Shown piece by piece: positions 37,382 through 56,570 of a DNA stretch of 64,000 bases. The notes below the pieces were generated by a model. It ran no database searches. It was not told where the DNA came from and saw only the letters and a program-made list of their open reading frames with translations. This DNA is from Pisolithus tinctorius (Eukaryota; Basidiomycota; Agaricomycetes; Boletales; Pisolithaceae). Location: positions 186,001 through 250,000 of the forward strand of contig JANFAH010000058.1 in the NCBI GenBank assembly GCA_024663395.1, in the 5' to 3' direction. Within the stretch, counting starts at the first letter, position 1; every line of letters begins with the position of its first letter. The position numbers and the translations under genes are program-made.

Positions 37382-37615
37382 CTAGGATGCAATTTCGAAT
37401 GCATGATGGTCAGCAAATCTATTCACATAATAATAATAAAACTTGTTGTATGATTCGTTAGGCTTGATGCTCGCTGGGTCAATTTGGTGGCTCGCATATA
37501 TAGGGATGAGTTGAGCTGCATGATAGATGGTATCGATGTGGATGATAGCGACGTCTTGAGTGTTGTGTGTACGAACTATCCACATCCCTGTGTTAGTGTC
37601 TGGGCCATCTCCTAC
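37382..37615 (-). pseudogene. Plavaka transposase, C-terminal part (separated by the foldback element)
   Basis: Minus-strand translation gives DGPDTNTGMWIVRT, IIHIDTIYHAAQLIPIYASH and YYVNRFADHHAFEIAS then TAG at 37382-37384. This is the usual C-terminal end of Plavaka transposases, the DDE-type CACTA-like elements of Agaricomycetes. The rest of the gene lies 15.5 kb away at 53080-54905 on the same strand. The first bases (37609-37615) are one copy of the target duplication of the inserted element. Confidence 0.85.
37609..37615 (+). repeat. Left 7-base target-site duplication (CTCCTAC)
   Basis: CTCCTAC here is repeated exactly at 53080-53086, directly outside the two inverted ends. Keeping one copy and removing the rest restores the Plavaka frame as RWFDRV-GDGPDTNTGMWIV. 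Confidence 0.9.
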
Positions 37616-37660
37616 GACCCCATGTAGTCCATTTAGTCACAACACATGGGCAGCCTGTGC
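37616..37660 (+). repeat. Left terminal inverted repeat
   Basis: After the target duplication the element reads gaccccatgtagtccattta then gtcacaacacatgggcagcc. The right end (reverse complement of 53079 downwards) reads cacatagtgtagtcacactt then agtcacaacacatgggcagc. The last ~20 outer bases are diverged with small gaps; from ttagtcac inwards the match is nearly perfect. Confidence 0.8.
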
Positions 37661-38633
37661 GCCAAAACACCAACACTTATATAGACCCCGAGACGGGCCC
37701 GCCTAAATAGATTAGCCAGTACACATGGACAGGCCCGAGGGACTAAAGTGTGAGCAACATATGTACGGGCCTGTAAGTGCATTACCACAACATATGGGAG
37801 GGCCCGTGGTGGGTAAGGATGTTGAAACATTTAGACGGGCCCATGACCAATTAAGAATACTGAGCTGCTATAAGACATGGGCGGGCCCGTCCTGGTAGGT
37901 TACACCCCTGTCACAACATCAAGGTGGGCCTGCCTATCATAACATGGAGAGGGTCACAACATAAGGATGGGCCTGGGAGGAATATCATTTATGGTGTTGC
38001 AACATATGAACGGGCCTGTTCATCATAAGCCATACCCTGGTCACAACATATGGACGGGCCTGTCAATAGCAAGATGTACCGCTGTTGAAACATAAAGACG
38101 GGCCCATCATTAATATCATTTAATAGAGTCACAACATAAGGGCGGGCCCTTCAGTAGTATTATTTATATTGTTGCAACATATGGACGGGCCTGTCCACAG
38201 TAGGATGTACCTCTGATGAAACATAAAGACGGGCCCTTCAGTAGTATTATTTATATTGTCACAACATATGGGCGGGCCTGGCCCCAGTAAGATGTACCCT
38301 GTCAAAACATAAAGACGGGCCTGTCATTAATATCATTTAATAGAGTCACAACATAAGGGCAGGCCCTTCAGTAGTATTATTTATATTGTTGCAACATATG
38401 GATGGGCCTGTCCACAGTAAGATGTACCTCTGATGAAACATAAAGACGGGCCCTTCAGTAGTATTATTTATATTGTCACAACATATGGGCGGGCCTGGCC
38501 CCAGTAAGATGTACCCTGTCAAAACATGAAGACGGGCCCGTCATTAATATCATTTAATAGAGTCACAACATAAGGGCGGGCCCTTCAGTAGTATTATTTA
38601 TATTGTTGCAACATATGGACGGGCCTGTCCACA
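37638..38633 (+). repeat. Outer minisatellite of the left arm, part 1
   Basis: Degenerate units of about 60-70 bases, each with a core like acatatggacgggcctgtcc or acataaagacgggcccttca, spaced by AT-rich pieces such as agtattatttatatt. The GGGCCC or GGGCCT core is itself nearly palindromic. It is cut by the chromovirus at 38638 and continues at 45478. Confidence 0.85.
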
Positions 38634-38638
38634 GTAAG
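38634..38638 (+). repeat. 5-base target duplication (GTAAG) of the chromovirus, left
   Basis: GTAAG directly before the left LTR is repeated directly after the right LTR at 45478-45482, as expected for LTR retrotransposon integration. The interrupted word cagtaagatgtacc occurs many times in the minisatellite. Confidence 0.92.
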
Positions 38639-39088
38639 TGTTACGCTCGACCGAAGTCAAGACGTAGGGAGAGCTCAAATGCAGACTAAGGTTTCTACTG
38701 AGCAACGGCTGCAGTAACCTCTGTAAATGACAGAGGATTTGGGGCAACGCCGGTAAGAGTGGTCCTGGTAAGGGACACTGAGGGCGAAGTTCTGAGGAAC
38801 GCTGCGTATGATTGAGCAGCTCAAGTCTGGGTTTCCAGGACTTGAGCCGGCAGTCTAAATACTACACAGAAACGGACCATGAGGCATCCGCATGTAACGA
38901 GGTAACTACGCCATTGGTTGAACAATGACGACACATGTCCTAAGCATGTAACGAGCCAGTAACGCTAGTGGTGGAAATAGGGAGCCGTCGGATCAGAGAG
39001 AAGACGGCTCTAAAAGGAAACTAAGTCCAACGGAACCAAGAACGAGGTAAACGTGCATAAAGGGAAAAGTTAGGGGTGAAACGTAACA
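38639..39088 (-). repeat. 3' LTR of the chromovirus (450 bases)
   Basis: Begins TGTTACGCTC and ends CGTAACA on the plus strand, with short inverted ends TGTTACG/CGTAACA. It matches the other LTR over the full 450 bases with about 11 substitutions, all transitions, no gaps. Confidence 0.95.
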
Positions 39089-39101
39089 TTACCCCCTTCC
39101 T
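39089..39101 (-). other. Polypurine tract
   Basis: On the element's sense strand aggaagggggtaa lies directly before the 3' LTR. This is the expected plus-strand primer site. Confidence 0.85.
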
Positions 39102-39125
39102 AAGCGTTGAAGTCCCCGACTTCAA

Positions 39126-40629
39126 CTATTCTCCGTAAGGTTCTCCGGTCATGTTGCTGATGGCGGAGTCATCGAAGTCAAAATCATTGTCGTACAGATC
39201 ATTATCCTCGCTCCCAACGAGGGTACGATCATCTACCAGAGCGGGGGTAGTTATTCTTTCCTGTAGAGGACGACGAGGGCGGATGGAAGGGCATTGGGCC
39301 TGAGTATGCCCGGGGCGAGTGGCGTGACAAAGGGGACATTCGTATAGTCCACAGTTGACGCGAATATGGCTGAGATGACGACAGACATAACACGCTTGAC
39401 GATAGCGTGGATCAGACGGAGTAAGAGGGATGTCGAACTCGGTCAAAGCATTCAACACAGGAGACGGCGGCAACTGTGCAAGGTTTTCGACAATGTTTAA
39501 CGTGTAGTCGAGCTCAGCACGGGAGACGCCAAAGGCAGTCTCGGGGTCTACTTCGGACGGCGAACTATGAGATTTGCAGGGTTGAGGGTTCGGGCCTGAC
39601 AAGCAGCAGGCGCGAGGTCTATCAGCTCTTCGAAGAGAGCGGGATGAACGGGAGGATGACGATGACGACGGTGCGGGAGGAGAGGACGACACGGAGGAAA
39701 CCGGAGGAGAGGTTGCAGTTGAGGGTCTTCTAGACCCAGGCGGGGGAGGTGCGATCAGCGTTGGATGTTGGCGAACGTTATAAATGAGGTCGGCGCCTCC
39801 AAGGACATCAAAAAGTTTAAGAAGCAGGGGAACCTGCTGGAGAGCAATCTCATTCAGGATGGTGCGGGCGGGGGACAGAAGGGGATTCTGTCGGTTTACA
39901 TAGTGAGAAAGTTCTTCAAGCCGAAGGGCTTGGATGGTGGCGTGATATACGAGGTCAAGGGGGGAGTCTTCATCCACCTCATGATAAACGGTGCCGACGA
40001 CAGCGGGGTCAGCAATGAAGAGTCGGTAAGAGGCGACCATTTGGTCACCAGCTGGCTGTCGTTGTTGGCGGGCAAACGGGGTGTGGCGACGAGAAGGTTC
40101 ACGAGGATAGGTGTAACGGCGAGGGGGCATCTCGAGGGTGATGTTTCTGATAGAGTGGGTGGTGCGTCTAGTAGGTTGTTTTTGAAGGGAAAAGTCTTTG
40201 GGAAACTGTTTCTTATAGGCGGAGAGCGTATCTTCCGCATGTTCAAGGTGTGACTCTTTTTGCCACGAGTTCTCGGAAGACGGGTAGCCTTTCCACTTGA
40301 CTAAAAAGGCATGTCCGCGGCCGGACCTTTTATGGCCGACTATTGCCTCAACTTCGTACTCTTCTTCCTCGTTGACCAGGTCAGGTGGTGGAGCCGGGAA
40401 GTTCGGTCCGTGAACGTCGTTTTCGCGATAGGGCGATAGAAGAGAAGCATGGAAGACGTTATGAATCTTCCATCGCGAGGGAATTGTGAGGCGATACGTT
40501 ATCGGGGATAGGACATCGGAGATTGTGAAGGGTCCTTCTCGTTTGGGTGCGAGCTTCCTATTTTCATAGGAGCATTTTAAATTTCGTGCTTCTAGCCAAA
40601 CCCTATCACCTTTCTGGAAGGGGGTGAAG
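39126..40629 (-). CDS. Pol C-terminal segment: chromodomain plus a tail with two zinc knuckles
   Basis: In the same frame as the rest of pol and separated from it by one TGA. It starts with the integrase end ([20 protein letters not shown]), then a chromodomain ([13 protein letters not shown] then [17 protein letters not shown], near 40250-40370). Retrotransposon chromodomains guide integration to particular chromatin. About 330 residues follow: a helical part, a Pro/Ser tract, and near the end [14 protein letters not shown] (CX2CX4HX4C) and [16 protein letters not shown] (CX2CX6HX4C). Such a long knuckle-bearing tail on pol is not usual for Tf1/sushi elements as I know them. Confidence 0.85.
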
Positions 40630-43600
40630 GGTCATGACGAGCGGTCTTTCATAGTTTTTCTTGCTAGGTCATGGGCCGCTAGGGCTTCTTCTCTAGCCTT
40701 CTTGAGTTCATTGAGTCTAGACTCGGCGGTGGGAAGGTGGGTTTCGGCAATCAGAGACGGAAGGGGTTTCGGTTCACAGCCGTACATGAGGTAGAACGGC
40801 GATTGATGTGTGACAGAGTGGGGTCGGTGGTTGTGCGCGAATTCTGCCATGGGAAGGTTGGCCACCCACGAGGTGGGATCGTTCTGGCAAAAGATGCGGA
40901 GATAGGTTTCCACCTCTTGGTTCACTCGTTCCGTTTCCCCATTGGTCTGCGGGTGATACGCCGTTGACAGGGCAAGGGAATACCCCAAGAGGGAAGCGAG
41001 TTCTTTTGCAAAGGCGGAGGCGAATTGAGGGCCTCGATCAGATATGATTTTGTCATACAACCCAAAGCGGGAGTAGACCTTCTTGAAAAATAGTGCCGCG
41101 ATATCAGCAGCGGAAGCAGCTTTCTTGGTTGGTGTTAAGATTACCCCCTTTGTAAGCCCATGGTCTACCACGACCAAAAGGGAATCATAGCTGTTTGAAA
41201 CGGGTAAATCGGTAACCAGATCACAAGAAATCTGTTGGAAAGGGCAGGTCGAGGTGGAGGGGATAGGCGTAAGGGGTGGTGTCGTCGGGTGGGTATTTGC
41301 TTTATTTTGCTGGCACACAGCACAGCCTTCAACGTACTTTCGGACAAAGGATGCAAGTCCAGGCCACCAGAATTCAGACGAGACGAGTTGTCGAGTTTTC
41401 AGGACACCAGGGTGTCCGGCAGAGGGATGATCATGGTGGTTGGACACGACGGTTCGTCGGAGGGTAGGGTCATCGGGGATATACACCCGGTCTTTATAAA
41501 GCAACACCCCGCTGTCAAATCTCCAATCAGACAGATGGGATTTAAATGGGAGTGGCATGTCGACGTTTTCGATGGCATGAAGTGCCATCTGGACCACAGG
41601 GTCTTTTTCGGAGGACGACGCGACCTTCTGAGTAAGGTTGGTGTCGATAAGGTTGACGAACAAGGTTTGTGGAAGGAGGGTAACTCCTTTGTTATCTTCG
41701 TCATTTTCGGGAATATGATCGGGACGACGGGAAAGTGCATCAGGTGCTGCCAGGTCTTTTCCTGGGACGTGTTCCAGTTGCAGATCAAAGTCTGCGAGGT
41801 CGAGGAGCCAGCGAGCCTGGCGGTGATTCAAGTTTTGAGGCGACTTGAAGTAAGTCAGATTTTTATGGTCTGTGAGGACCTTAACTGGGAAAGGGGATCC
41901 GTGGAGGTAATGTCTCCAGGATTTCAGTGCTCGAATAACCCCTAGCAGTTCCCTGTCATAAATGTCATAGTTTCGTTCTGCAGGATTAAACGATTGAGAC
42001 AGGAAGGCGCAGGGTTGCCACTGTCCATTCGAATCTTCTTGAAGGAGGATTCCTCCTGTTGCGTACTTGGACGCATCCGTAGTGATTGCGAATGGTCGAG
42101 AGGTATCAGGCATCCGAAGGGTTGGTTGTGCCATGAAGATTCTTTTTAGGAGCTCAAAGGCGTCCTGACATTTTCTTGACCAACTCCAATCGACTGTTTT
42201 CTTGGTAAGGTCGATGAGTGGTCGTGCGATGTCCGAGTAGTAGGGGACAAATCTTCTGTAAAAGTTTGCGAATCCTAGGAAGGATCGCACGTCTTTGACC
42301 TTCTTTGGGACAGGCCAGTCAGCAATACCCTGGACTTTGACGGGGTCCATGGCAACGGTGTTTTCTTTGATGATCATTCCGAGGTATTCGACTTCGGCTA
42401 GATCAAAGTGACATTTTTCCAATTTTAAGGGAAGAGAGAGTTCCCTCATTCGTTCGAGAACACGACGGGTTCTTCGTTTGTGTTCTTCGGGGTCGTTCGA
42501 GAATATGAGGAGGTCATCCATGTAGACGACTAACCATCCTTCGGCGATCATGTCTCGGAAGGAGTCATTCATGAATCGCTGGAAGGTGGCAGGGGAGTTG
42601 CAGAGGCCGAAGAACATAACGGTGGGTTCAAAAAGTCCCTTGTGTGTGATAAACGCTGCCTTCCACTGGTCTCCCTCTTTGATACGGACATTGTTGTAGC
42701 CCGACCTGACATCCATCTTTGTGAAGATGGAGGCTCCTTTTAACTTGTCTACCAGGTCTGAAATGAGGGGAAGGGGGTATGCATCCTTCACAGTATTCCT
42801 ATTCAGGTACCTGTAGTCTTGGCAGGGTCGCAGGGAACCATCCTTCTTTCCTACGAAGAAGAAGGGGGCAGCTTGGGGAGACTTTGAGGGGCGGATCTTT
42901 CCTTCTCGAAGGTTTTCTTCGATAAACTTTTCTGCAGAGTCTCGTTCGGAGGGAGAGAGAGGATATGCCTTAGCCACCTTGGGGACGAAGTCCTCTACAA
43001 GGTTTATGGCATGGTCATATGGTCGTGATGGAGGTAAAACTCCATCAGATGGTTTCTCGAAAACCGAGGCGAAGTCCTTGTACTCTTCAGGAAGGACAGC
43101 CTTCAGTTTCTTCTTATGTTCTTCCTGGGCCAGTTCCGTGGCTGTGGTGATTTTTCGGAGAAGACTATTATTGGGGTTTATTTTCTTTGCTTCTTCGACA
43201 AGTTTTCCAACTGACATCACGAAATGTGCCCGGACGGTTTCATCTTCTGGTTCTTCGTAATCCATGAACTTGTTTATCCCCTTCTTTTCAGCGGGGGATA
43301 CAAGATTCACAGTTGGTTCTTCGACAACAACGGAAGAGACATTGCGTCTTAATTCCTTGGATCTATCGGTTTTCTCTTCGATAGATAACGTGCCCATCCT
43401 CCAGTCCACAACAGGGTTGTTTTCCTGGAGCCAGGGGAGACCCAAAATGATGTTTTCTGTCCCACAGTTGATGACATGGAAAAAGGACTGGTGAACGAGT
43501 CCTTTAACTTTGAAGTAGAGGGTGGCGGAAAACAATATTTTTCCTTTAGAGTTTTGGGTTCCATCGGCATTTTTGGCGAGGATGGGTTCGGCGAGTCGTT

Positions 43601-43832
43601 GAGTGGGGATTCGGTGCTTTCGCACAAAGCCCCAGTCGATGCAAGAAATTTCTGCTCCAGAATCAACTAGAGCGGCGGTGTTGACGACTTTCAGAGTAGT
43701 TCCTGATGTGTAGAGGGAGATGGGAATCTGCATAGTACGTTCGGGTGTAGACGTTACAAGTACAGGTGCAACAGAAACTAAACTGTCCTTAGTTTGGGGA
43801 ACATCTGGCGTCAACGCAGAGTTCCCATTCAA
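40630..43832 (-). CDS. Gypsy pol: protease, reverse transcriptase, RNase H, integrase (ends at a premature TGA)
   Basis: Order along about 1066 residues: aspartic protease ([13 protein letters not shown], near 43670), RT with [10 protein letters not shown] (near 42510), RNase H ([30 protein letters not shown]), integrase zinc region ([11 protein letters not shown]...[12 protein letters not shown]) and the DDE core ([33 protein letters not shown]). All catalytic residues seen are intact. The frame begins with TTG at 43832, so it is expressed as a gag-pol fusion by -1 slippage at TTTTT just before the gag stop, or by another route. TGA at 40634-40632 replaces what was probably CGA, cutting off the chromodomain. 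If read-through fails, the element is disabled. Confidence 0.93.
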
Positions 43833-44941
43833 AAATCCTTTCCAAGAGCTCTAGCGATGTTAACTAGAGCGATGGATGGACCAGCGACTTTTTCTTCATC
43901 GTCGCTTTCTTCTACTTCCACAATTTTGCGGATCTTCTTTACTTTCTTTTGGGGGGTTTTCCCCTTATCTGGACATTCTCGGGAGAGATGTCCTTTGTTT
44001 CCACAACCGAAACATCTTCCTTCCTTGATGTGACGGTCTCTTTCTTCTTTGGAGAGTCTCACTCCATCCACATCCATAGCGTTTGGATCTTTTTCTTCAG
44101 CGAAGTTGTTCCTGGGGTGGAACGTTTTCTTTTCTTTTCTTCCAAAAGTTTCATTGACCTTTCTCCACTTAGCATCAAACTTCTGTGCTTGGGTGTACCA
44201 CTCGGTAATTTTGGTGGGAGTGGTTTCCATCATGTGGATTCGGTTCGCGATGAAAGGCTTGAGTCCTTGTGAGAAGAACTCAATCAAAGCGACGTCTTCC
44301 GTGATGGTAGAGTCGGCGGCAGCAGTTCGGAAATCGGTGATATACTGTTCAACCGATTCTTTTTGTTTCAGGGTACGTAGTTTGGCGATGGCAGTACCCG
44401 CGGTGTCTGCGGAGGTGAACGAGGCTTTGAAATCTTTTATGAAATCGGCAAAGGTGCCGAAACTCGGGGGGTTCTTTTCCAGAGACGTTTTCTGGAAGGT
44501 AGCGGCCCAAGAGTGGGCAACGTCTTTCTTCATGTACGACAGCGCATAGACAACCTTTTTGGTGTCAGAGTCGTACAATTCTTCGTTGACCAAGAGGTAG
44601 GTCTGTACTGAGTACAGCCAGCTCATGGCGTTCTTTTGGTTTCCATCAAAATCAGATGGAGCACCAATCTTCAGTTCAGTGGCTTTGGTGGCATTGCCAA
44701 CCGGTGCCTTCGACGATGAGCCAGACATCGCAATCTGTGGTGGGGGCGGCGGTGTAGGGAAGAGTGGTGGGGGACTTGGTTGGATGGGGGTACCAAGTGA
44801 CGCAAGTGACTGGGAGAAAAGGTTCGAGAGAATTCCAGAGGTAAAACCTCTATCTGGCTGTTCGGGTTCGTTGGAGGAGGTGTCTGTGACAGTGCTCTCC
44901 TGTTCTTCGTCAGACGACGATTCTTCATGAGTGGGTCGCAA
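43829..44941 (-). CDS. Gypsy gag with CCHC zinc knuckle
   Basis: About 370 codons. A Pro/Ser-rich start is followed by the capsid region (LKIGAPSDFDGNQKNAMSWL, YALSYMKKDVAHSWAATF, LRTLKQKESVEQYITDFRTA) and one knuckle CFGCGNKGHLSREC (CX2CX4HX4C). The frame is open upstream to a TGA near the leader but contains no ATG before 44728 (MSGSSSKAPVG). Either translation starts at 44728, losing about 70 residues, or the start codon has been lost or is non-AUG. It overlaps pol in the -1 frame at its stop (GAT TTT TGA). Confidence 0.88.
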   Translation of the reverse strand: MRPTHEESSSDEEQESTVTDTSSNEPEQPDRGFTSGILSNLFSQSLASLGTPIQPSPPPLFPTPPPPPQIAMSGSSSKAPVGNATKATELKIGAPSDFDGNQKNAMSWLYSVQTYLLVNEELYDSDTKKVVYALSYMKKDVAHSWAATFQKTSLEKNPPSFGTFADFIKDFKASFTSADTAGTAIAKLRTLKQKESVEQYITDFRTAAADSTITEDVALIEFFSQGLKPFIANRIHMMETTPTKITEWYTQAQKFDAKWRKVNETFGRKEKKTFHPRNNFAEEKDPNAMDVDGVRLSKEERDRHIKEGRCFGCGNKGHLSRECPDKGKTPQKKVKKIRKIVEVEESDDEEKVAGPSIALVNIARALGKDF

Positions 44942-45014
44942 CGGTGCCCAACGTCGATTGTTTCGGGGGTTCGTGGTGGTTCACTAAGCAGTGACCGATT
45001 CGGCCAAAGGCTGT

Positions 45015-45025
45015 AGACTTGAGCT
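45015..45025 (-). other. Self-priming primer-binding site
   Basis: Two bases inside the 5' LTR, the sense strand reads agctcaagtct. Its reverse complement, agacttgagct, occurs in the LTR sense strand (45217-45207 in the 5' LTR). Elements of the Tf1/sushi group start minus-strand DNA by folding the mRNA 5' end back on this site instead of using a tRNA. No match to a tRNA 3' end (TGG...) is seen here. Confidence 0.7.
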
Positions 45026-45027
45026 TT

Positions 45028-45477
45028 TGTTACGCTCGACCGAAGTCAAGACGTAGGGAGAGCTCAAACGCAGACTAAGGTTTCTACTGAGCAACGGCTG
45101 CAGTAACCTCTGTAAACAACAAAGGATTTGGGGCAACACCGGTAAGAGTGGTCCTGGTAAGGGACACTGAGGGCGAAGTTCTGAGGAACGCTGCATATGA
45201 TTGAGCAGCTCAAGTCTGGGTTTCCAGGACTTGAGCCAGCAGTCTAAATACTACACAGAAACGGACCATGAGGCGTCCGCATGTAACGAGGTAACTACGC
45301 CATTGGTTGAACAATGACGACACATGTCCTAAGCATGTAACGAGCCAGTAATGCTAGTGGTGGAAATAGGGAGCCGTTGGATCAGAGAGAAGACAGCTCT
45401 AAAAGGAAACTAAGTCCAACGGAACCAAGAACGAGGTAAACGTGCATAAAGGGAAAAGTTAGGGGTGAAACGTAACA
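45028..45477 (-). repeat. 5' LTR of the chromovirus (450 bases)
   Basis: Same length and ends as the 38639-39088 LTR. The 5' role is set by the minus-strand direction of gag and pol. If self-priming is right, transcription starts near 45217, inside the LTR at agacttgagct. Confidence 0.95.
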
Positions 45478-46174
45478 GTAAGATGTACCTCTGATGAAAC
45501 ATAAAGAGGGGCCCTTCAGTAGCATTATTTATATTGTCACAACATATGGGCGGGCCTGGCCCCAGTAAGATGTACCCTGTCAAAACATAAAGATGGGCCC
45601 GTCATTAATATCATCTAATAGAGTCACAACATAAGGGCGGGCCCTTCAGTAGTATTATTTATATTGTTGCAACATATGGACAGGCCTGTCCACAGTAAGA
45701 TGTACCTCTGATGAAACATAAAGATGGGCCCTTCAGTAGTATTATTTATATTGTCACAACATATGGGTGGGCCTGGCCCCAGTAAGATGTACCCTGTCAA
45801 AACATAAAGACAGGCCTGTCACTAGTATCATTGAATAGAGTCACAACATATGGACGGGCCTGTCCACAGTAAGATGTACCTCTGACAAAACATGAAGACG
45901 GGCCCATCAGTAATCTCATGTATAGCATCACAACATATGGACAGGCCCTTCAGTAGTATAATTTATATTGTCACAACATATAGGCAGGCCCATCCACAGT
46001 AAGATGTACCTCGGATGAAACATAAAGACGGGCCCATCAGTAATCTCATGTATAGCATCACAACATATGGATGGGCCCTTCAGTAGTATTATTTATATTA
46101 TCACAGCATATGGGCAGGCCCAGCCCCAGTAAGATGTACCCTGTTGAAACATAAAGACGGGCCCATCACTAATG
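45478..46174 (+). repeat. Outer minisatellite of the left arm, part 2
   Basis: Starts with the second GTAAG (45478-45482) and continues the same units as 37638-38633, up to the first 161-base repeat. Parts 1 and 2 together give about 1.69 kb against about 1.27 kb in the right arm. Confidence 0.85.
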
Positions 46175-48235
46175 GATGTGGTATCCCTGGCACCCACTGA
46201 ACAGCGGCTTTCAATGGACACCATGCTGGCATGAATTGGAGATGATTTGAGTGACCCAGATCTCACAAGCTGCAGTCTGGATGTATTTGGCATTAATCGG
46301 ACTATTGCCAGCCATCCGCCCATCCACATTGAGTGGATGGGGCATCCCCAGCACCCCCTGAATATTGGCTTGCCATGGACACCATTCTGGCATGGATTGG
46401 AGCTAATTTGAGTGACCCAGACGTCACAAGCTGCACCCTTGGGGTATTTAGCATTAATCAGACTATTGCCAGCCATCCGCCCATCTGTATTGAGCGGATG
46501 CAGCATCCCTGGGACCTGCTCAACAGTGACTTTCCATGGAAACCATTCTGGCATGAATTGGAGCTGATTTGAGTGACCCAGACCTCACAAGCTGCACCCT
46601 TGGTGTATTTGGCATTAATGATGTTATTGCCAGCCATCCGCCCATCCACATTGAGCGGATGTGGCATCCCTGGCACCCCCTCAACAGTGGCTTTGCATGG
46701 ACACCATTCTGGCATGAATCGGAGCTGATTTGAGTGACCCAGACCTCACAAGCTTCACCCTGGATGTATGTCCCATTAATTAGACTATTGCCAGCCTTCC
46801 GCCCATCTGTATTGAGCGGATGAGGTATCCTCAGCACCCGCTCAACAGCGGCTTTCCATGGACACCATTCTGGCATGAATCGGAGCTGATTTGGGCATCC
46901 CAGACCTGTCCCAGACCTGACAAGCTGCACCCAGGAGGTATGTCCCATTAATTAGACTATTGCCAGCCTTCCGCCCATCTGTATGGAGCGGATGTGGTAT
47001 CCCCAGCACTCGCTGAACAGCAGCCTTCCATGGACACCATTATGGCATGAATCAGAGCTGATTTGAGTGACCCAGACCTCACAAGCTGCACCCTGGATGT
47101 ATGTCCCATTAATTAGACTATTGCCAGCTTTCCACCCATCTGTATTGAGCGGATGAGGTATCCTCAGCACCCGCTCAACAGCGGCTTTCCATGGACACCA
47201 TTCCGGCATGAATCGGAGTTGATTTGGGCATCCCAGACCTGTACCAGACCTTACAAGCTGCACTGGGGATGGATGTCCCATTAATTAGACTATTTCCAGC
47301 CTTCCGCCCATCTGTATTGAGCGGATGAGGTATCCTTGGCACCCGCTCAACAGTGGCTTTCCATGGACACCATTCTGGCATGAATTGGAGCTGATTTGAG
47401 TGACCCAGATCTCACAAGCTGCACCCTTGGTGTATTTGGCATTAATCACACTATTGCCAGCCTTCCGCTCATCTTTATTGGGCGGATGTGGTATCCCCAG
47501 CACCCGCTGAACAGCAGCTTTCCATGGACACCATTCTGGCATGAATCGGAGCTGATTTGAGTGACCCAGACCTCACACGCTGCACCTGGGGTGTATGTCC
47601 CATTAATCACACTATTGCCAGCCTTCCGCCCATTTGTATTGAGTGGATGAGGTATCCTCAGCACCCGCTCAACAGCGGCTTTCCATGGACACCATTCCGG
47701 CATGAATCAGAGCTGATTTGAGTGACCCAGACCTCACAAGCTGCACCTGGGGTGTATGTCCCATTAATCACACTATTGCCAGCCTTCCGCCCATTTGTAT
47801 TGAGCGGATGAGGTATCCTCAGCACCCGCTCAACAGCAGCTTTCCATGGACACCATTCCGGCATGAAACGGAGCTGATTTGGGCATCCCAGACCTGTCCC
47901 AGACCTGACAAGCTGCACCCAGGAGGTATGTCCCATTAATTAGACTATTTCCAGCCTTCCACCCATCTGTATTGAGCGGATGAGGTATCCTTGGCACCCG
48001 CTCAACAGTGGCCTTCCATGGACACCATTCTGGCATGAATTGGAGCTGATTTGAGTGACCCAGATCTCACAAGCTGCACCCTTGGTGTATTTGGCATTAA
48101 TCACACTATTGCCAGCCTTCCGCTCATCTGTATTGGGCGGATGTGGTATCCCCAGCACCCGCTGAACAGCAGCTTTCCATGGACACCATTCCCACATGAG
48201 TTGCAGCTGATTTCCATGACCCAGATCATATCTGC
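46175..48235 (+). repeat. 161-base tandem array, left arm (about 13 units)
   Basis: Each unit contains cagcggctttccatggacac, cattctggcatgaatcggag, ctgatttgagtgacccagac, tcacaagctgcaccc and attgccagccttccgcccat or close variants. Some units carry an extra ~10 bases (gacctgtccca). Units lack stops in one minus-strand frame, which explains the series of similar open frames of 68-153 codons there. The period is not a multiple of three, so these frames shift from unit to unit and are not genes. Confidence 0.9.
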
Positions 48236-49130
48236 CCACCCCCCCTCATGCCCGTTGGAGTTTCTCCCCACAAATCCCCACAGTTTATTTTCATCACTCC
48301 TCTGAATTTTATGGAATTACATAAGCCACAAAAAGCGCAGCCACTACTCCCAGAAACATGTCCTCATTTGGCATGTGCCTGATATCCAACATTCCCACAC
48401 ACTTCCCTCATTGTCCCCAGCCTCCCCTTTCTTTCTGGGCTCTGTCCCTTCACTGTAGGCATTGTATAAGATAGTTACATGTACTACAAGTCCATTAGCC
48501 CATAAATGGATGCTTTTCTGCCCATCCTAATGGGCCTAAATAAATTGCAATGTCTGATTGGGGCAAAACCAGAAAAAGCAATTGCTTTTTTGATATATTG
48601 GTCATATCTATCTATTTATTGTGTCCCCTTGAAGGGGCCATGTGTCCCTACAACATATCACAAGTTGATAGGCTGGGATGGCGTGCTTCAAGTGTAGTAA
48701 AACTGGAAATTATCTTAGGGTCCCAAACAAAAAAGTGTTCGCATTTTTGATATTTTTGACATGGGCACTTGAAAAAGGAACTAGCTTTGAGGATGGTTCT
48801 GTACCTACAACATACCAACAGCTCATTATGTGGGGCAGACACCTTGAGGTGTTGTGCCATGATCTCTTCCTGCTGGTATGTAGGGGTTTCATCATGTTCT
48901 AGGCTGTTTACTGCTATTCTGACTATCTAGGCAGCACTGTAATACTGATTGGCAGTCACCACAACATTCCCAAGCTCATCCCTTCAGGGGAGAGCACTGG
49001 GGAACTGAAACAATCCTCCAGAGAGCGTGGGAAAAGGTGCAAAAAATTGCGGAGACTTTCAAAACATATCAAAAACATGAAATTGCTCACCCCACACAAT
49101 GTATGACATTCAATGGATCATAGTACTGAG
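48236..49130 (+). repeat. Inner unique part of the left arm
   Basis: About 0.9 kb matching 49349-50244 in reverse with few differences (for example tgacattcaatgg against tgacatccaatgg near the centre). No coding is supported. It contains AT-rich stretches and several acaacata words similar to those in the outer minisatellite. Confidence 0.85.
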
Positions 49131-49348
49131 TGTCCCTTGGTGATGGGATATATATACATGTAACATATTATCTTCATCACTCATTAACACCCAAAAATGC
49201 GAAAATTGATAAACTAGGTCCTGTCATTCAATGGATACATTTGACTACTCAAGGTGTAGGAGACTAACAACAAGTCTGAAGTTCTGAGTTGTGTTACACT
49301 CAAGTAGGTCTAATATAGTCCCAGTAGGTCCTATCATATGAACAAAAT
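49131..49348. other. Central loop of the foldback element (218 bases)
   Basis: The inverted match stops at tagtactgag on the left and resumes at ctcagtacta on the right. The sequence between is unrelated on the two sides and has no coding. It is the only unpaired part if a single strand folds on itself. Confidence 0.85.
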
Positions 49349-50244
49349 CTCAGTACTATGATCCATTGGATGTCATACATTGTGTGGGGTGAGCAATTTC
49401 ATGTTTTTGATATGTTTTGAAAGTCTCCGCAATGTTTTGCACCTTTTCCCACGCTCTCTGGAGGATTGTTTCAGTTCCCCAGTGCTCTCCCCTGAAGGGA
49501 TGAGCTTGGGAATGTTGTGGTGACTGCCAATCAGTATTACAGTGCTGCCTAGATAGTCAGAATAGCAGTAAACAGCCTAGCACATGATGCAACCCCTAAA
49601 TACCAGCAGGAAGAGATCTTGGCACAACACCTCAAGGTGTCTGCCCCACATAATGAGCTGTTGATATGTTGTAGGTACAGAACCATCCTCAAAGCTAGTT
49701 CCTTTTTCAAGTGCCCATGTCAAAAATATCAAAAATGCGAACACTTTTTTGTTTGAGCCCCTAAGATAATTTCCAGTTTTACTACACTTGAAGCACGCCA
49801 TCCCAGCCTATCAACTTGTGATATGTTGTAGGGACACATGGCCCCTTCAAGGGGACACAATAAATAGATAGATATGACCAATATATCAAAAAGCAATTGC
49901 TTTTTCTGGTTTTGCCCCAATCAGACATTGCAATTATTTAGGCCCATTGGGATGGGCAGAAACGCATCCATTTATGGTCTAATGGACTTATAGTACATGT
50001 AACTATCGTATACAATGCCTACAGTGAAGGGACAGAGCCCAGAAAGAAAGGGGAGGCTGGGGACAATGAGGGAAGTGTGTGGGAATGTTGGATATCAGGC
50101 ACATGCCAAATGAGGACACGTTTCTGGGAGTAGTGGCTGCGCTTTTTGTGGCTTATGTAATTCCATAAAATTCAGAGGAGTGATGAAAATAAACTGTGGG
50201 GATTTGTGGGGAGAAACTCCAAAGGGCATGAGGGGGGGTGGGCA
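49349..50244 (-). repeat. Inner unique part of the right arm
   Basis: Reverse complement of 48236-49130, apart from scattered substitutions. No gene is supported. Confidence 0.85.
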
Positions 50245-51796
50245 GATATGATCTGGGTCATGGAAATCAGCTGCAACTCATGTGGGAATGGTGTCCATGG
50301 AAAGCTGCTGTTCAGCGGGTGCTGGGGATACCACATCCGCTCAATACAGATGGGCAGAAGGCTGGCAATAGTGTGATTAATGCCAAATACACCAAGGGTG
50401 GAGCTTGTGAGATCTGGGTCGCTCAAATCAGCTCCGATTCATGCCAGAATGGTGTCCATGGAAAGCCACTGTTGAGCGGGTGCCAAGGATACCTCATCCG
50501 CTCAATACAAATGGGCGGAAGGCTGGAAATAGTCTAATTAATGGGGCATACCTCCTGGGTGCAGCTTGTCAGGTCTGGGACAGGTCTGGGATGCCCAAAT
50601 CAGCTCCGATTCATGCTGGAATGGTGTCCATGGAAAGCCGCTGTTGAGCGGGTGCTGAGGATACCTCATCCGCTCAATACAAATGGGCGGAAGGCTGGCA
50701 ATAGTGTGATTAATGGGACATACACCCCAGGTGCAGCTTGTGAGGTCTGGGTCGCTCAAATCAGCTCTGATTCATGCCAGAATGGTGTCCATGGAAAGCC
50801 GCTGTTGAGCGGGTGCTGAGGATACCTCATCCACTCAATACAGATGGGCGGAAGGCTGGCAATAGTCTAATTAATGGGACATACATCCAGGGTGAAGCTT
50901 GTGAGGTCTGGGTCACTCAAATCAGCTCCGATTCATGCCAGAATGGTGTCCATGGAAAGCAGCTGTTGAGCGGGTGCTGAGGATACCTCATCCGCTCAAT
51001 ACAGATGGGCGGAAGGCTGGCAATAGTCTAATTAATGGGACATACATTCAGGGTGAAGCTTGTGAGGTCTGGGTCACTCAAATCAGCTCCGATTCATGCC
51101 AGAATGGTGTCCATGGAAAGCCGCTGTTGAGCGGGTGCTGAGGATACCTCATCCGCTCAATCTAGATGTGCAGAAGGCTGGCAATAGTGTGATTAATGGG
51201 ACATACACCCCAGGTACAGCTTGTGAGGTCTGGGTCACTCAAATCAGCTCCGATTCATGCCAGAATGGTGTCCATGCAAAGCCACTGTTGAGGGGGTGCC
51301 AGGGATGCCACATCCGCTCAATGTGGATGGGTGGATGGCTGGCAATAGCATCATTAATGCCAAATACACCAAGGGTGCAGCTTGTGAGGTCTGGGTCACT
51401 CAAATCAGCTCCAATTCATGCCAGAATGGTTTCCATGGAAAGTCACTGTTGAGCAGGTCCCAGGGATGCTGCATCCGCTCAATACAGATGGGCGGATGGC
51501 TGGCAATAGTCTGATTAATGCTAAATACCCCAAGGGTGCAGCTTGTGACGTCTGGGTCACTCAAATTAGCTCCAATCCATGCCAGAATGGTGTCCATGGC
51601 AAGCCAATATTCAGGGGGTGCTGGGGATGCCACATCCACTCAATGTGGATGGGCGGATGGCTGGCAATAGTCCGATTAATGCCAAATACATCCAGACTGC
51701 AGCTTGTGAGATCTGGGTCACTCAAATCATCTCCAATTCATGCCAGCATGGTGTCCATTGAAAGCCGCTGTTCAGTGGGTGCCAGGGATACCACAT
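50245..51796 (-). repeat. 161-base tandem array, right arm (about 9.6 units)
   Basis: Same unit as the left array in reverse orientation, with about three fewer units. The innermost and outermost units match their partners in the left arm, so the change in number happened inside the array after the palindrome formed. Confidence 0.9.
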
Positions 51797-53061
51797 CCAT
51801 TAGTGACGGGCCCGTCTTTATGTTTCAACAGGGTACATCTTACTGGGGCTGGGCCTGCCCATATGCTGTGATAATATAAATAATACTACTGAAGGGCCCA
51901 TCCATATGTTGTGATGCTATACATGAGATTACTGATGGGCCCGTCTTTATGTTTCATCCGAGGTACATCTTACTGTGGATGGGCCTGCCTATATGTTGTG
52001 ACAATATAAATTATACTACTGAAGGGCCTGTCCATATGTTGTGATGCTATACATGAGATTACTGATGGGCCCGTCTTCATGTTTTGTCAGAGGTACATCT
52101 TACTGTGGACAGGCCCGTCCATATGTTGTGACTCTATTCAATGATACTAGTGACAGGCCTGTCTTTATGTTTTGACAGGGTACATCTTACTGGGGCCAGG
52201 CCCACCCATATGTTGTGACAATATAAATAATACTACTGAAGGGCCCGTCTTTATGTTTCATCAGAGGTACATCTTACTGTGGACAGGCCTGTCCATATGT
52301 TGCAACAATATAAATAATACTACTGAAGGGCCCGCCCTTATGTTGTGACTCTATTAGATGATATTAATGACAGGCCCATCTTTATGTTTTGACAGGGTAC
52401 ATCTTACTGGGGCCAGGCCCGCCCATATGTTGTGACAATATAAATAATACTACTGAAGGGCCCGTCTTTATGTTTCATCAGAGGTACATCCTACTGTGGA
52501 CAGGCCCGTCCATATGTTGCAACAATATAAATAATACTACTGAAGGGCCCGCCCTTATGTTGTGACTCTATTAAATGATATTAATGATGGGCCCGTCTTT
52601 ATGTTTCAACAGCGGTACATCTTGCTATTGACAGGCCCGTCCATATGTTGTGACCGGGGTATGGCTTATGATGAACAGGCCCGTTCATATGTTGCAACAC
52701 CATAAATGATATTCCTCCCAGGCCCGTCCTTATGTTGTGACCCTCTCCATGTTATGATAGGCAGGCCCACCTTGATGTTGTGACAGGGGTGTAACCTACC
52801 AGGATGGGCCCACCCATGTCTTATAGCAGCTCAGTATTCTTAATTGGTCATGGGCCCGTCTAAATGTTTCAACATCCTTACCCACCATGGGCCCTCCCAT
52901 ATGTTGTGGTAATGCACTTACAGGCCCGTACATATGTTGCTCACACTTTAGTCCCTCGGGCCTGTCCATGTGTACTGGCTAATCTATTTAGGCGGGCCCG
53001 TCTCGGGGTCTATATAAGTGTTGGTGTTTTGGCGCACAGGCTGCCCATGTGTTGTGACTAA
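51797..53061 (-). repeat. Outer minisatellite of the right arm
   Basis: Reverse complement of the left outer minisatellite, without the retrotransposon and with fewer units. It is an uninterrupted copy, which shows that the chromovirus entered only the left arm. Confidence 0.87.
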
Positions 53062-53079
53062 GTGTGACTACACTATGTG
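53035..53079 (-). repeat. Right terminal inverted repeat
   Basis: Partner of 37616-37660. The outermost bases cacatagtgtag differ slightly from the left end gaccccatgtag. Confidence 0.8.
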
Positions 53080-53086
53080 CTCCTAC
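53080..53086 (+). repeat. Right 7-base target-site duplication (CTCCTAC)
   Basis: Exact copy of 37609-37615. On the Plavaka coding strand it reads GTAGGAG, within codons for V-G-(D). Confidence 0.9.
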
Positions 53087-54905
53087 ACGGTCAAACCAAC
53101 GTATGATCGCGCAAGGATACTCCGTGCCTAGGTACTTGAAAGAAACAAAACACAGAACACGAGCGACGTCCAGCCCAAGCATGCCCTTTGCATGAGGATC
53201 AGTTACAACGAAGACACAGTCATAACGGGGGCCTTCATTCCTCCACATAGGGGAACAACATATATGTTCGCGACGCATGCCGTGGAGGCCACTCACATCA
53301 CTGGGTGCATAGAATGTCGAGGATGCAGAGTTGTAGACACAGACAGATCCATCATAAAAGGGATATTCATCCAAGGGGACATCTTCCAGATTGCGATCGT
53401 CATGCTGAAGCTGCGATTGAAGAAAACGGCGCAAGATATCGAGGAGCTGGGGTATGTTGAGTTTGGTTGCTAGGTCCCTCATATTCCTTGCATGTGTACG
53501 TTCTATGATCAACAGATTAGAATTCATACGCATGAAGCTATGAGCAAAGGCATACGGTAGGTCCAGGCCAACGATATGTGGGCCTCGACTGACATAGGAG
53601 AGTTGTCCGTATTGCCTGCGTCTTCTTCGAAACTTGCTGTGGGTTCATCAGTACCATCTTCGCAGTCCTGATTGTTTGACATGTCGTGGTCAGTCTCATT
53701 ACGAGTCTCATTACGATATTGTTCTAGAATACAGTCAGCGTCAAGAACAGTGTCTAAGAAAAATGCTCACACCTAGAGTTCCAAGCACATGTGACAGGCA
53801 AGTCCCTCTCAACATGCCACGTTTTTCGAAGTCTGCACACACTGCAGCAAATTTGTCAAGCCTCTGGTTGATCACAAGCATCTGTCCAAGAGCCTGAAAG
53901 CGGTTAGTATGCCGATAAGGTCGCTTGACTGCTTTGATATGTTTGGACTCAGTAATCGATGAACAGAGCCCATTTGGTGCGCCGAACTGGTGTATAAGAT
54001 AGGGATAATGCTTCATAGCATGTTGCCAGGGTAATGAAAATGTAGTGATTACTTGGGCATTCCGGAAGACTTCACGATACAAGTGGAAGTGTGTGAGTGC
54101 GTCCTCGATCGCGGTAAGCGTTGGTTCGGTGATAACATTTCGGCAGACGAGGTAGCAAAACTCAAGAAAGGCACGAAACGTGTGGATGACATCCTCTGGG
54201 ACATAGCCTTCGATGGCTGCAATATATACCTGTAGAGGACCGGTCAATCATCATACACCATTTAAAAAGGATTGGGGAACCTTCATGAGGCCTTTGGAGT
54301 CATCACCAGTCCATTGTTTAAAGTGTCGGCCTTGAGGGAAACGTCGCAGCCCAGTAAATGGGGTGACAGCTGCGATCCTGGAAATCAATGAGGTCAGTCA
54401 GTACGTGATAACAGAGGTCAGCCAACACACCTTCGATCAATATCATCCAGTATTTTTTCTGCAGCGCCCTTTCCATGAATATGGATGAGGTACCTTTCCA
54501 CCCAGTCAACCAGGTGATCTTTGAATCCACCCTTGATGAGTTGATGAAGAATGTCCGGAGAAAGCATTCTCTGGATGTCCACATGTGGAAACCCGCTTGT
54601 AAATGGCTGTCCTTGATCAGTCATGAAAAAAGAAGCAAGTATATTGTACATACCACTATATCTCCGTCAATTCCATACCCTTCCCAAAGTGTCTGAGGGT
54701 CCAACTCCCTGATGATCAATTCGGTGTGTTCGCGGTGACGCCAGAGTGCATCTTCGTCAAGGTTCTCCCAGTGTGCGAGACATTTCGGACACCAATTACA
54801 CAAGCCCATGCACCTGGTTAGGCCATATGAGACGGTCAGTGGAGGCTGACAATCGGCCGTTGGTGATGGGCCAGCGGAAGTTGAGCCCATGTATGGCTTG
54901 TGCAC
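53080..54905 (-). pseudogene. Plavaka transposase, main part, interrupted by the foldback element
   Basis: Spliced minus-strand pieces give, in order, [132 protein letters not shown]; an acidic linker; and NIPQLLDILRRFLQSQL through FKYLGTEYPCAIIRWFDRVG. These are typical blocks of Plavaka (DUF6830-type) transposases, which move CACTA-like elements. The reading frame stops in the inserted element and resumes at 37608. The N-terminal half upstream of about 54905 was not found, so the gene may also be truncated there; I did not find Plavaka terminal repeats. Confidence 0.82.
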
Positions 54906-55319
54906 GTGGGTTACATGAGAGCCATGAACCTATTGTCACCTTGTAGTATGGGAGAGCCCAACTGATGAGTGTCACCATGTAGTACAGCTGAGCCTGAGAG
55001 GAAATGTTGTCATGAGGAATGGTGCAGCTGTGGTTTGAATTGTCATTGTCAGTTACAAGCAGGCTGGGGAGTAAGTGTCATCATGGACTATGGGGGGGGC
55101 CAATAAATGAGTGTCACCATAGCATACAGCTGAGCCCATAAGTAGGAGTCACTATAGAGAATGGCCGCGCAGAGGTTAGAATTGTCATCATGGGGTACAA
55201 GCCAGCTGTGGGACTAGGGTGTAGCCACTGCAATATGAGTAGTCCCAGGTAAGCCCAGAGTTGGGTGTCCCCAGAAGGTATGGATGGGCTCAGCGCCTGA
55301 GTTCACCCCTGGCAGCACT
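54906..55319. other. Spacer with short repeated words
   Basis: No gene supported. The word gagtgtcaccat and close variants occur several times between 54965 and 55150, suggesting a degenerate minisatellite. Confidence 0.4.
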
Positions 55320-56570
55320 GTCATGCAAGCCGGCCCAACACCAATGCCATGCTAGCCGTCCCGGCAACACTGCCATGTGGGCCGGCCCACCACAAATGCC
55401 ATGCAGGCCATCCTGGGACGAATGCCATGCGAGCTGGGCCAACACCAATGCAATAGGAATAGGCCCAATACCAATGCCATGCAGGCCGGCACAACACCAA
55501 TGCCATGCTGGCTGTCCTGGGATCGATTCCACGTGGGCAGACCCAATACCAATGCCATCCAACGCGTCCCAGCACCAAAGCAATGTGATCCAGGCCAACA
55601 CAAACCCAGGACTAATGCCATGGAAGCCGTCCATGCTGGCACTGATTGAATGTGAACTGGCACAATGCCACGTGCTCCGGCACATCGCCACTGCCTTGGG
55701 GCCATCATGGAAGCTGTCCCGGCACCGATGTATTGTAAGCCGGCACCGGCACCAGGTCCATGTGTTCCAGCACATCCCCAATGCCATGGGGCCATCATGC
55801 AGGCCATCCCGGCACCATTGGAATGTGTTCCAGCACAACACCAATGCCATGGAAGCCGTGCCGGAACCAATGCCGTATGTTCCGGCCATCCCAAATACCA
55901 TGAGGCCTATCGTGCAGGCCATTCTGGCGCCATTGTAATGTGTACTGGCACCAGTTCCATGTATTCCGGCATATCCCCAATGCCACAGGTCCATCATGCA
56001 AACCATCCTGGCACCTTTGTAATGAGTTCCGGCACATCCCCAATGCCATGGAGGGCGTCCCGGCACCAGCTCTATGTATTCCGGCATATCCCCAATGTGA
56101 TAGGTCCATCATGCAAGCCATCCCGGAACCTTTGCAATTAGTGCCGGCACATCCCCAATGCCATGGGGCCATCATGCAGGCCATTCCGGCACCATTGTAA
56201 TGTAATGTGTTCCAGCACAACACCAATGCCGTGGAAGCCGTCCCGGAACCCATGCCATTGTAATGTGTTCTGGCACAGCACCAATGCCATGGAAGCCGGC
56301 CCGGCACCAGTTCCATGTATTCCGGCATATCCCCAATTCCATGACTCCATCATGCAAGCCATCCCGGCACCATCGTAATGTGTTCCAGCACAACACCAAC
56401 ACCGTGGAAGCCGTGCCGGCACCTATGCCATATGTTCCAGCACATCCCCAATTCCATGAGGCCATCATGCAGGCTGTCACAGCACCATTGTAAGGAGTTC
56501 CGGCACATCCACCAATGCCATGAGGCCATCAGTCAAGCTTTCCCGGCACCAATGGCATGGAGGCCCGCCC
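55320..56570 (+). repeat. Minisatellite with core 'caccaatgccatg'
   Basis: Degenerate units of about 27-50 bases built from accaatgccatg, gaagccgtcccggcac, gtaatgtgttccagcaca and catcatgcaggccat. Both strands have long open frames (for example 55261-55938 plus and 55290-56087 minus) only because the repeated words lack stops. The translations are repetitive (His, Trp, Met, Pro or Gly-rich) and do not look like real proteins. Confidence 0.85.

Follow-up and report, generated by a model that had tools for sequence, protein, structure and literature searches.

The 64,000-nucleotide stretch of the Pisolithus tinctorius genome analysed here (the window; contig JANFAH010000058.1, positions 186,001 to 250,000, forward strand) carries a foldback element that splits a gene for a Plavaka transposase. 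A first-pass annotation, made from the letters of the window without database searches, had delimited this element and stated that it fitted no family its author could name. Its tips and its 7-bp target-site duplication prove to be those of a KDZ family with TET/JBP genes, and comparison of its sequence with the rest of the genome makes it very probable that it is a non-autonomous foldback derivative of a TET/JBP-bearing transposon of the KDZ superfamily, probably of the Kyakuja lineage. The element extends from 37616 to 53079 (15,464 bp) and is bordered directly on each side by CTCCTAC (37609-37615 and 53080-53086), the two flanks matching at a length of 7 bp and at none of the lengths 6, 8 or 9.

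The terminal bases of the two ends are unlike, one tip (A) being GACCCCATGTAGTCCAT and the other (B) CACATAGTGTAGTCACAC, and both are followed by the same 12 bp, TTAGTCACAACA. The inverted ends of the earlier description are thus real for the arms (37630-38600 against 52094-53064, 971 nt, 97% complementary) and do not extend to the last 17-18 bp, which are not inverted copies of each other. A genome-wide search at three or fewer mismatches returned 116 A and 131 B sites, with none for either of the reversed-pattern controls. To study how the tips are paired we used the sites with at most one mismatch among the first 100 listed for each tip, namely 75 A and 95 B. Adjacent convergent tips are of the mixed A+B type in 55 of 58 cases; 5,000 shuffles of the labels gave 28.8 on average and never more than 42. 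The three same-type pairs have spacings of 16.0 kb, 190 kb and 343 kb, and the 16.0-kb pair has no duplication. Of the 55 mixed pairs, two that span 146 kb and 838 kb probably do not represent single elements, and the size classes used below omit them.

Thirteen foldbacks, the window copy and 12 others, were read and have the same end bases; the two copies of the 7-bp duplication agree fully in 10 of them and differ by one mismatch in three. Exact 7-bp duplications also flank an 18.4-kb KDZ copy and a 1.2-kb miniature inverted-repeat transposable element (MITE) with these tips. For 40 more pairs the ends only were read: 27 have an exact duplication and six have one with a single mismatch, the chance expectation being about 0.002 exact 7-bp matches in 40 pairs (two of these pairs, on C12 and C135, have common flanks and represent one site). 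Exact duplications among the end-read pairs include spans of 58, 63, 66, 80 and 103 kb, located at C11:260056-318078, C43:425717-488982, C63:33578-99388, C17:623137-702771 and C6:737632-840381. These long pairs are single insertion units, enlarged by nested insertions or bearing cargo. Between these options, later nested insertions were judged more likely than cargo-carrying giants of up to 103 kb, because the sizes vary and the distance from the KDZ gene to the B tip is variable in long pairs; the exception to the size variation is the one locus present twice on C12 and C135.

The first-pass annotation had advised looking for a KDZ element, among others, with the same ends, and such a copy was found at C2:500973-519420. 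It is 18,448 bp long, has the same A and B tips, arms of ~43-bp repeats and the 7-bp duplication GCTAGAC, and encodes proteins matching KDZ (PF18758, E 6e-27) and CxC2 (E 2e-26), as well as a TET/JBP dioxygenase (PF12851, E 6e-20). Relatives of these genes were then placed on the map of tips. The KDZ set comprised 48 of 49 matches at 80% identity or more, among the best 150 of 330 candidates, and the TET set 57 pieces at 79% or more, among the best 150 of 219. Among the matches so listed, KDZ relatives fall in at least 29 of the 39 A/B pairs of 17-110 kb, TET relatives in at least 33 and one or both in at least 34, and none falls in the 14 shorter pairs. These shorter pairs consist of the MITE, 12 foldbacks from the set of 13, and C46:328702, which was read at its ends only and has no duplication. 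Ten pairs measure 17.9-19.0 kb, and in eight of them a distance of 6.7-7.9 kb separates the B tip from the KDZ gene; the remaining two are C20:502939, with TET pieces only, and the foldback L017. Five long pairs contain neither gene among the matches listed. L017 (C12:663600), one of these, is a foldback by sequence with a 10-kb insert, and three others (on C7, on C43 and C17:623137) are of foldback type, with the base of the B arm at their A end; the fifth is C5:2705182. L017, L021 and L023, which are longer foldbacks, were also considered as possible transposase carriers and rejected: none of the 200 best matches of each falls in the KDZ interior, and no KDZ or TET match listed lies inside their spans. 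The window element has no KDZ or TET relatives either among the matches listed, as is the case in all 14 pairs under 17 kb, and it is accordingly a non-autonomous derivative and not a KDZ member by coding.

We also observed a second tip family, GACCCCATGTAGTCAGCTTAGTCAC (e.g. C4:1395962, C18:753563 and C5:2529517), near the tips of which lie KDZ relatives at ~77-82% and TET relatives at ~50%.

The sequence behind the tips records how the foldbacks differ from their gene-bearing relatives. The 18.4-kb KDZ copy and the MITE have a distinct arm behind each tip, and 11 columns within the first 190 bp discriminate the A arm from the B arm. At these columns both sides of all 13 foldbacks are B-like (10 or 11 of 11), and the A ends of the KDZ copy and of the MITE are A-like at 11 of 11. 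Base 30 of the A end is the first discriminating base, and in end reads it is that of the A arm in 29 of 29 KDZ-labelled pairs; among the 10 readable pairs without KDZ it is that of the A arm in seven and of the B arm in three. A B arm behind an A tip is thus confined to gene-less elements, and the switch from one arm to the other falls within the shared TTAGTCACAACA.

At the insertion site the target gene can be reconstructed. When the element is removed with one CTCCTAC, RWFDRVGDGPDTNTGMWIV is read across the junction within an open frame of 263 codons, as the first-pass annotation had predicted. A paralogue of the split exon on C3 aligns without a gap over 1,345 bp at 97.0% identity, has GTAGGAG once and represents the empty site, and the alignment spans the junction in all six paralogues that were fetched. 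A translated search of the genome gave 97 matching pieces, many of which cross the junction. End reads and the C3 paralogue therefore uphold the foldback in a Plavaka gene, its 7-base duplication and its exact boundaries as first described; that description could have been upset by copies with other end points or duplication lengths, or by a paralogue disagreeing at the junction, and what was found is 13 foldbacks sharing ends and 7 bp, and six paralogues aligning across. Plavaka-type sequence had been claimed on both sides of the element: the label comes from a PF18759 match at 54418-54929, in exons that precede the split exon, and a Pfam scan of the joined C-terminal exon itself gave no significant match. 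Among 120 of 308 matches listed, named proteins from Pisolithus and Scleroderma are the nearest, which points to the order Boletales.

The span of 15.5 kb originally given for the element is correct as a span, but its size is inflated by a Ty3/gypsy retrotransposon of 6,839 bp nested in the left arm; once this is set aside, the foldback proper amounts to 8,620 bp. The gypsy element has 450-bp long terminal repeats (LTRs) that are 97.6% identical, a 5-bp duplication and Pfam matches to gag, protease, reverse transcriptase, RNase H, integrase and chromodomain. The earlier statement that the element encodes no enzyme is therefore true of the foldback proper and fails for the whole 15.5 kb. The foldback is built in layers, with outer repeats of ~43 bp, inner repeats of 161 bp, a palindromic core and a 218-bp spacer; the inner complementary pairs 45475-46907/51065-52497 and 48587-49130/49349-49892 are each 98% complementary. 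It thus has the long, internally repeated inverted arms with little in between that mark a foldback element. Its parts and those of the target gene are as follows (evidence in brackets).

37382-37615, minus strand: Plavaka transposase after the junction, last 77 codons and stop (joined frame, paralogue alignment)
37609-37615, no strand: target-site duplication, left copy CTCCTAC (end reads)
37616-37640, plus strand: KDZ-family A tip, A-specific in its first 17 bases (genome-wide tip search and alignment)
37633-38638, plus strand: left outer arm, part 1, ~43-bp repeats of KDZ B-arm type (arm alignment, arm typing)
38634-38638 and 45478-45482: gypsy duplication GTAAG (end comparison)
38639-45477, minus strand: Ty3/gypsy with chromodomain (LTRs 38639-39088 and 45028-45477)
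43829-44980, 40632-43850 and 39126-40631, minus strand: gypsy coding frames (Pfam matches)
45478-46173, plus strand: left outer arm, part 2, 43-bp repeats (arm alignment)
46174-48225, plus strand: left inner array of 161-bp repeats, without counterpart in the KDZ copy (repeat detection)
48226-49130, plus strand: left core half, common to IS3EU-like foldbacks (arm alignment, genome comparison)
49131-49348, no strand: central spacer, its direction relative to the A/B tips varying among copies
49349-50251, minus strand: right core half (arm alignment, genome comparison)
50252-51798, minus strand: right inner array of 161-bp repeats (repeat detection)
51799-53061, minus strand: right outer arm, 43-bp repeats of KDZ B-arm type (arm alignment, arm typing)
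53054-53079, minus strand: KDZ-family B tip, B-specific in its first 18 bases (genome-wide tip search and alignment)
53080-53086, no strand: target-site duplication, right copy CTCCTAC (end reads)
53087-53644, minus strand: Plavaka transposase, portion of the split C-terminal exon that precedes the junction; additional exons lie upstream (PF18759 at 54418-54929)

C182 has this insertion too, with the beginning of the same nested gypsy at 99.5%, and for this reason probably represents the other haplotype. The possibility of an assembly artefact was dismissed, as the 13 foldbacks occur at separate places with duplications of their own and C182 repeats the insertion. Upstream of the Plavaka exons, the window contains tandem arrays with units of 26 bp and 115 bp (55322-56522). 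Elsewhere, at C5:2928225-2928599 beside L012, a second Plavaka coding stretch and the start of another foldback copy are ~0.3 kb apart; Plavaka is common in the genome, so this closeness may be due to chance.

Comparison of the two sides within each foldback suggests exchange between arms. The core halves (904 nt) are identical within L019 and within L021, and reach at most 99.3% and 98.7%, respectively, to other elements; those of the window copy are 98.2% alike and at most 98.0% identical to other elements, and those of L009, L010, L011 and L017 are too similar for a comparison within and between elements. The 161-bp arrays span from 0.9 to 3.5 kb across copies, left and right being equal in four of nine copies and differing by about whole units in the other five. 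Furthermore, the central spacer runs one way relative to the tips in three of nine copies and the opposite way in six, and in L009 as against L010 and L011 the core halves are switched together with the spacer. The KDZ copy has no match to the 161-bp array, the core, the spacer or the gypsy interior. Among the best 40 of 58 candidates, the 161-bp repeats have many matches inside known foldbacks and others on, for example, C38, C8, C142, C11, C130, C26 and C48.

The core (48226-50251) occurs also in a separate palindromic family. One member, L028 (C1:935567-938309), measures 2,743 bp, has 1,266-bp arms that are 99.9% identical, ends in TATGGAAAGCC and has the 6-bp duplication TATGGG; the matches listed for it include no 43-bp or 161-bp array. 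Of seven more copies examined, five have exact 6-bp duplications, which represent three independent sites (four with L028); in the two copies on C10 no 6-bp duplication is matched. With ends of the form TATGG..CCATA and 6-bp duplications, these stand-alone foldbacks agree with IS3EU elements, for which 6-bp duplications and TAYGG..CCRTA ends are described (PMC12730594). The window element differs in its KDZ tips and its 7 bp, the inner palindrome alone being common to both. For the two C10 copies (C10:1206010-1209103 and C10:1223080-1225597), GGAATG occurs in the left flank of one and again in the right flank of its counterpart, as if recombination between copies had exchanged their flanks. 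A bigger palindrome, L025 (C5:2814100-2821500), has arms of 1,702 bp at 99.9% and contains two identical divergent tip-like ends, past which the palindrome runs into the flanks.

Based on these observations we propose that the A end of an ancestral KDZ element would have been repaired by inverted copying of the B arm, the switch falling within the 12 bp of TTAGTCACAACA, such that only the terminal 17 A-specific bases would survive; we infer that this copying took place once or a few times. The IS3EU-like palindromic core and the 161-bp repeats would have entered the middle, with exchange between arms keeping left and right alike. KDZ transposase from the 18-kb copies would act in trans, making a cut with a 7-bp stagger at an A tip paired with a B tip, which is how we infer that the foldback is mobilised. 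The window copy would have inserted in the Plavaka exon, and the gypsy element would have joined its left arm later. The full proposal, in which transposition takes one A and one B tip, the A information residing in the terminal 17 bp and the inner sequence being interchangeable, and in which the foldback arose by copying of the B arm, stayed mobile only through the kept A tip and acquired a core that moves as a common module between foldbacks of two unrelated superfamilies, KDZ and IS3EU, is offered tentatively, at what we judge to be a little short of an even chance.

The KDZ affiliation itself has to be set against membership in another foldback superfamily with 7-bp duplications, P (Galileo-like) or hAT, the KDZ tips having been captured or being coincidental. 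Galileo does combine long, internally repeated arms with 7-bp duplications (PMC4168063), and rust fungi have 7-bp hAT families (PMC12730594); P/Galileo, Mutator and hAT were each weighed on account of the 7 bp and the repeated arms. Such an identity is highly improbable, although no search aimed at P or hAT transposases was made, as tips and arms agree base for base with those of the KDZ copy and the great majority of long pairs with the same tips (at least 34 of 39) hold KDZ or TET relatives; the empty reversed-pattern controls exclude chance sharing of the tips, and given the KDZ partner none of these identities is needed.

A more serious contender, doubtful but carrying real weight, accepts the KDZ affiliation and ascribes the A+B pairing to descent from a single A/B founder, with a transposase that would take any two tips. 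The foldbacks are closely alike (core halves 97.5-100%) and hence are not independent trials, and the autonomous copies likewise derive from one ancestor. Yet arms appear to have been swapped between left and right, as seen in the identical core halves of L019 and L021 and in the spacer lying both ways, and despite this swapping the last 17-18 bp are never alike in the 13 foldbacks. Nor was an A+A or B+B pair with a duplication seen among the 58 convergent pairs, those of 190 and 343 kb being judged by spacing only. As to the order of events, two copies could first have been joined head to head into a foldback with two B ends, which would have acquired the A tip later through recombination with an intact copy. 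This would also leave both arms of B type, and 15 divergent B-B neighbour pairs exist; but it takes an extra step, with the switch landing in the same 12 shared bases, whereas copying of the B arm is one step, and we regard it as unlikely.

Several observations weigh against the derivation from KDZ elements and the mechanism proposed here. Eighteen of the 48 KDZ matches lie outside any A/B pair, we have no account for the long pair C5:2705182 without either gene, and seven of the 40 end-read pairs have no convincing duplication. One KDZ copy was read over its whole length, the other pairs being known from end reads and translated matches. In seven of the 13 foldbacks the outer arms are less similar within the element than to their best match in another element, so that arm exchange is not a clean rule, and no source of the 161-bp repeats was traced among the best 40 of 58 candidates. 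Finally, transposition is read from the sequence, and no movement was observed.

Among described systems, the partner comes closest to Kyakuja. Kojima (2025; PMC12730594) gives duplications of 7 bp for Kyakuja and of 8 bp for Zisupton and Dileera, and Kyakuja as the only TET-positive lineage in Boletales. The partner resembles it in the 7-bp duplication and in combining a KDZ transposase with a TET/JBP gene. The two Kyakuja families described from Laccaria have CA..TG termini and no terminal inverted repeats (TIRs); here, in contrast, the B tip begins with CA and the A tip with GA, and both ends have long repeat arms, although the Laccaria pattern may not define the Kyakuja lineage. The window element differs further in having no genes of its own. 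As the fit is good except for the A tip and the arms, the partner is filed as KDZ, Kyakuja-like.

The element is also reminiscent of Galileo, of the P superfamily in Drosophila, in its long, internally repeated arms and 7-bp duplication (PMC4168063), and of Galileo and other foldbacks in that gene-less copies have the longest arms (PMC4168063, PMC3573991, PMC3688188). For Galileo it has been suggested that arms lengthen when repair copies one TIR onto the other (PMC3573991), and the Galileo sub-repeats are bound by the transposase (PMC3688188); by analogy, the 43-bp repeats may be putative transposase binding sites here. Unlike Galileo, the present foldback has a KDZ and not a P partner, its tips are unlike and kept unlike, and the switch point is readable to within 12 bases. 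No KDZ-transposon foldback was found in the literature searched, which comprised top-ranked matches with thin coverage of subscription papers.

The association with TET genes is of further interest in view of base composition. The TET-bearing KDZ copy has a ratio of observed to expected CpG of 0.80-0.87, and the nested gypsy one of 0.91. Five foldbacks, some of them young, have ratios of 0.33-0.35, whereas the L021 core has 0.10 and the MITE 0.05; the loci compared were window 37616-53079, L009-L012, L019, L021 and L029-L031, with one TET-bearing copy. Loss of CpG in the foldbacks and the MITE, and none in the TET copy, bears on the idea that TET shields its own element from methylation, age being a confounder of the contrast.

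More generally, the tips of these elements keep a record of foldback formation, with the A tip retained, the B arm behind it and the switch confined to 12 shared bases, and this record makes the source of foldback arms testable. The A+B pattern, moreover, suggests minimal ends of ~30 bp with which to assay a group of transposases that the papers cited describe from sequence.

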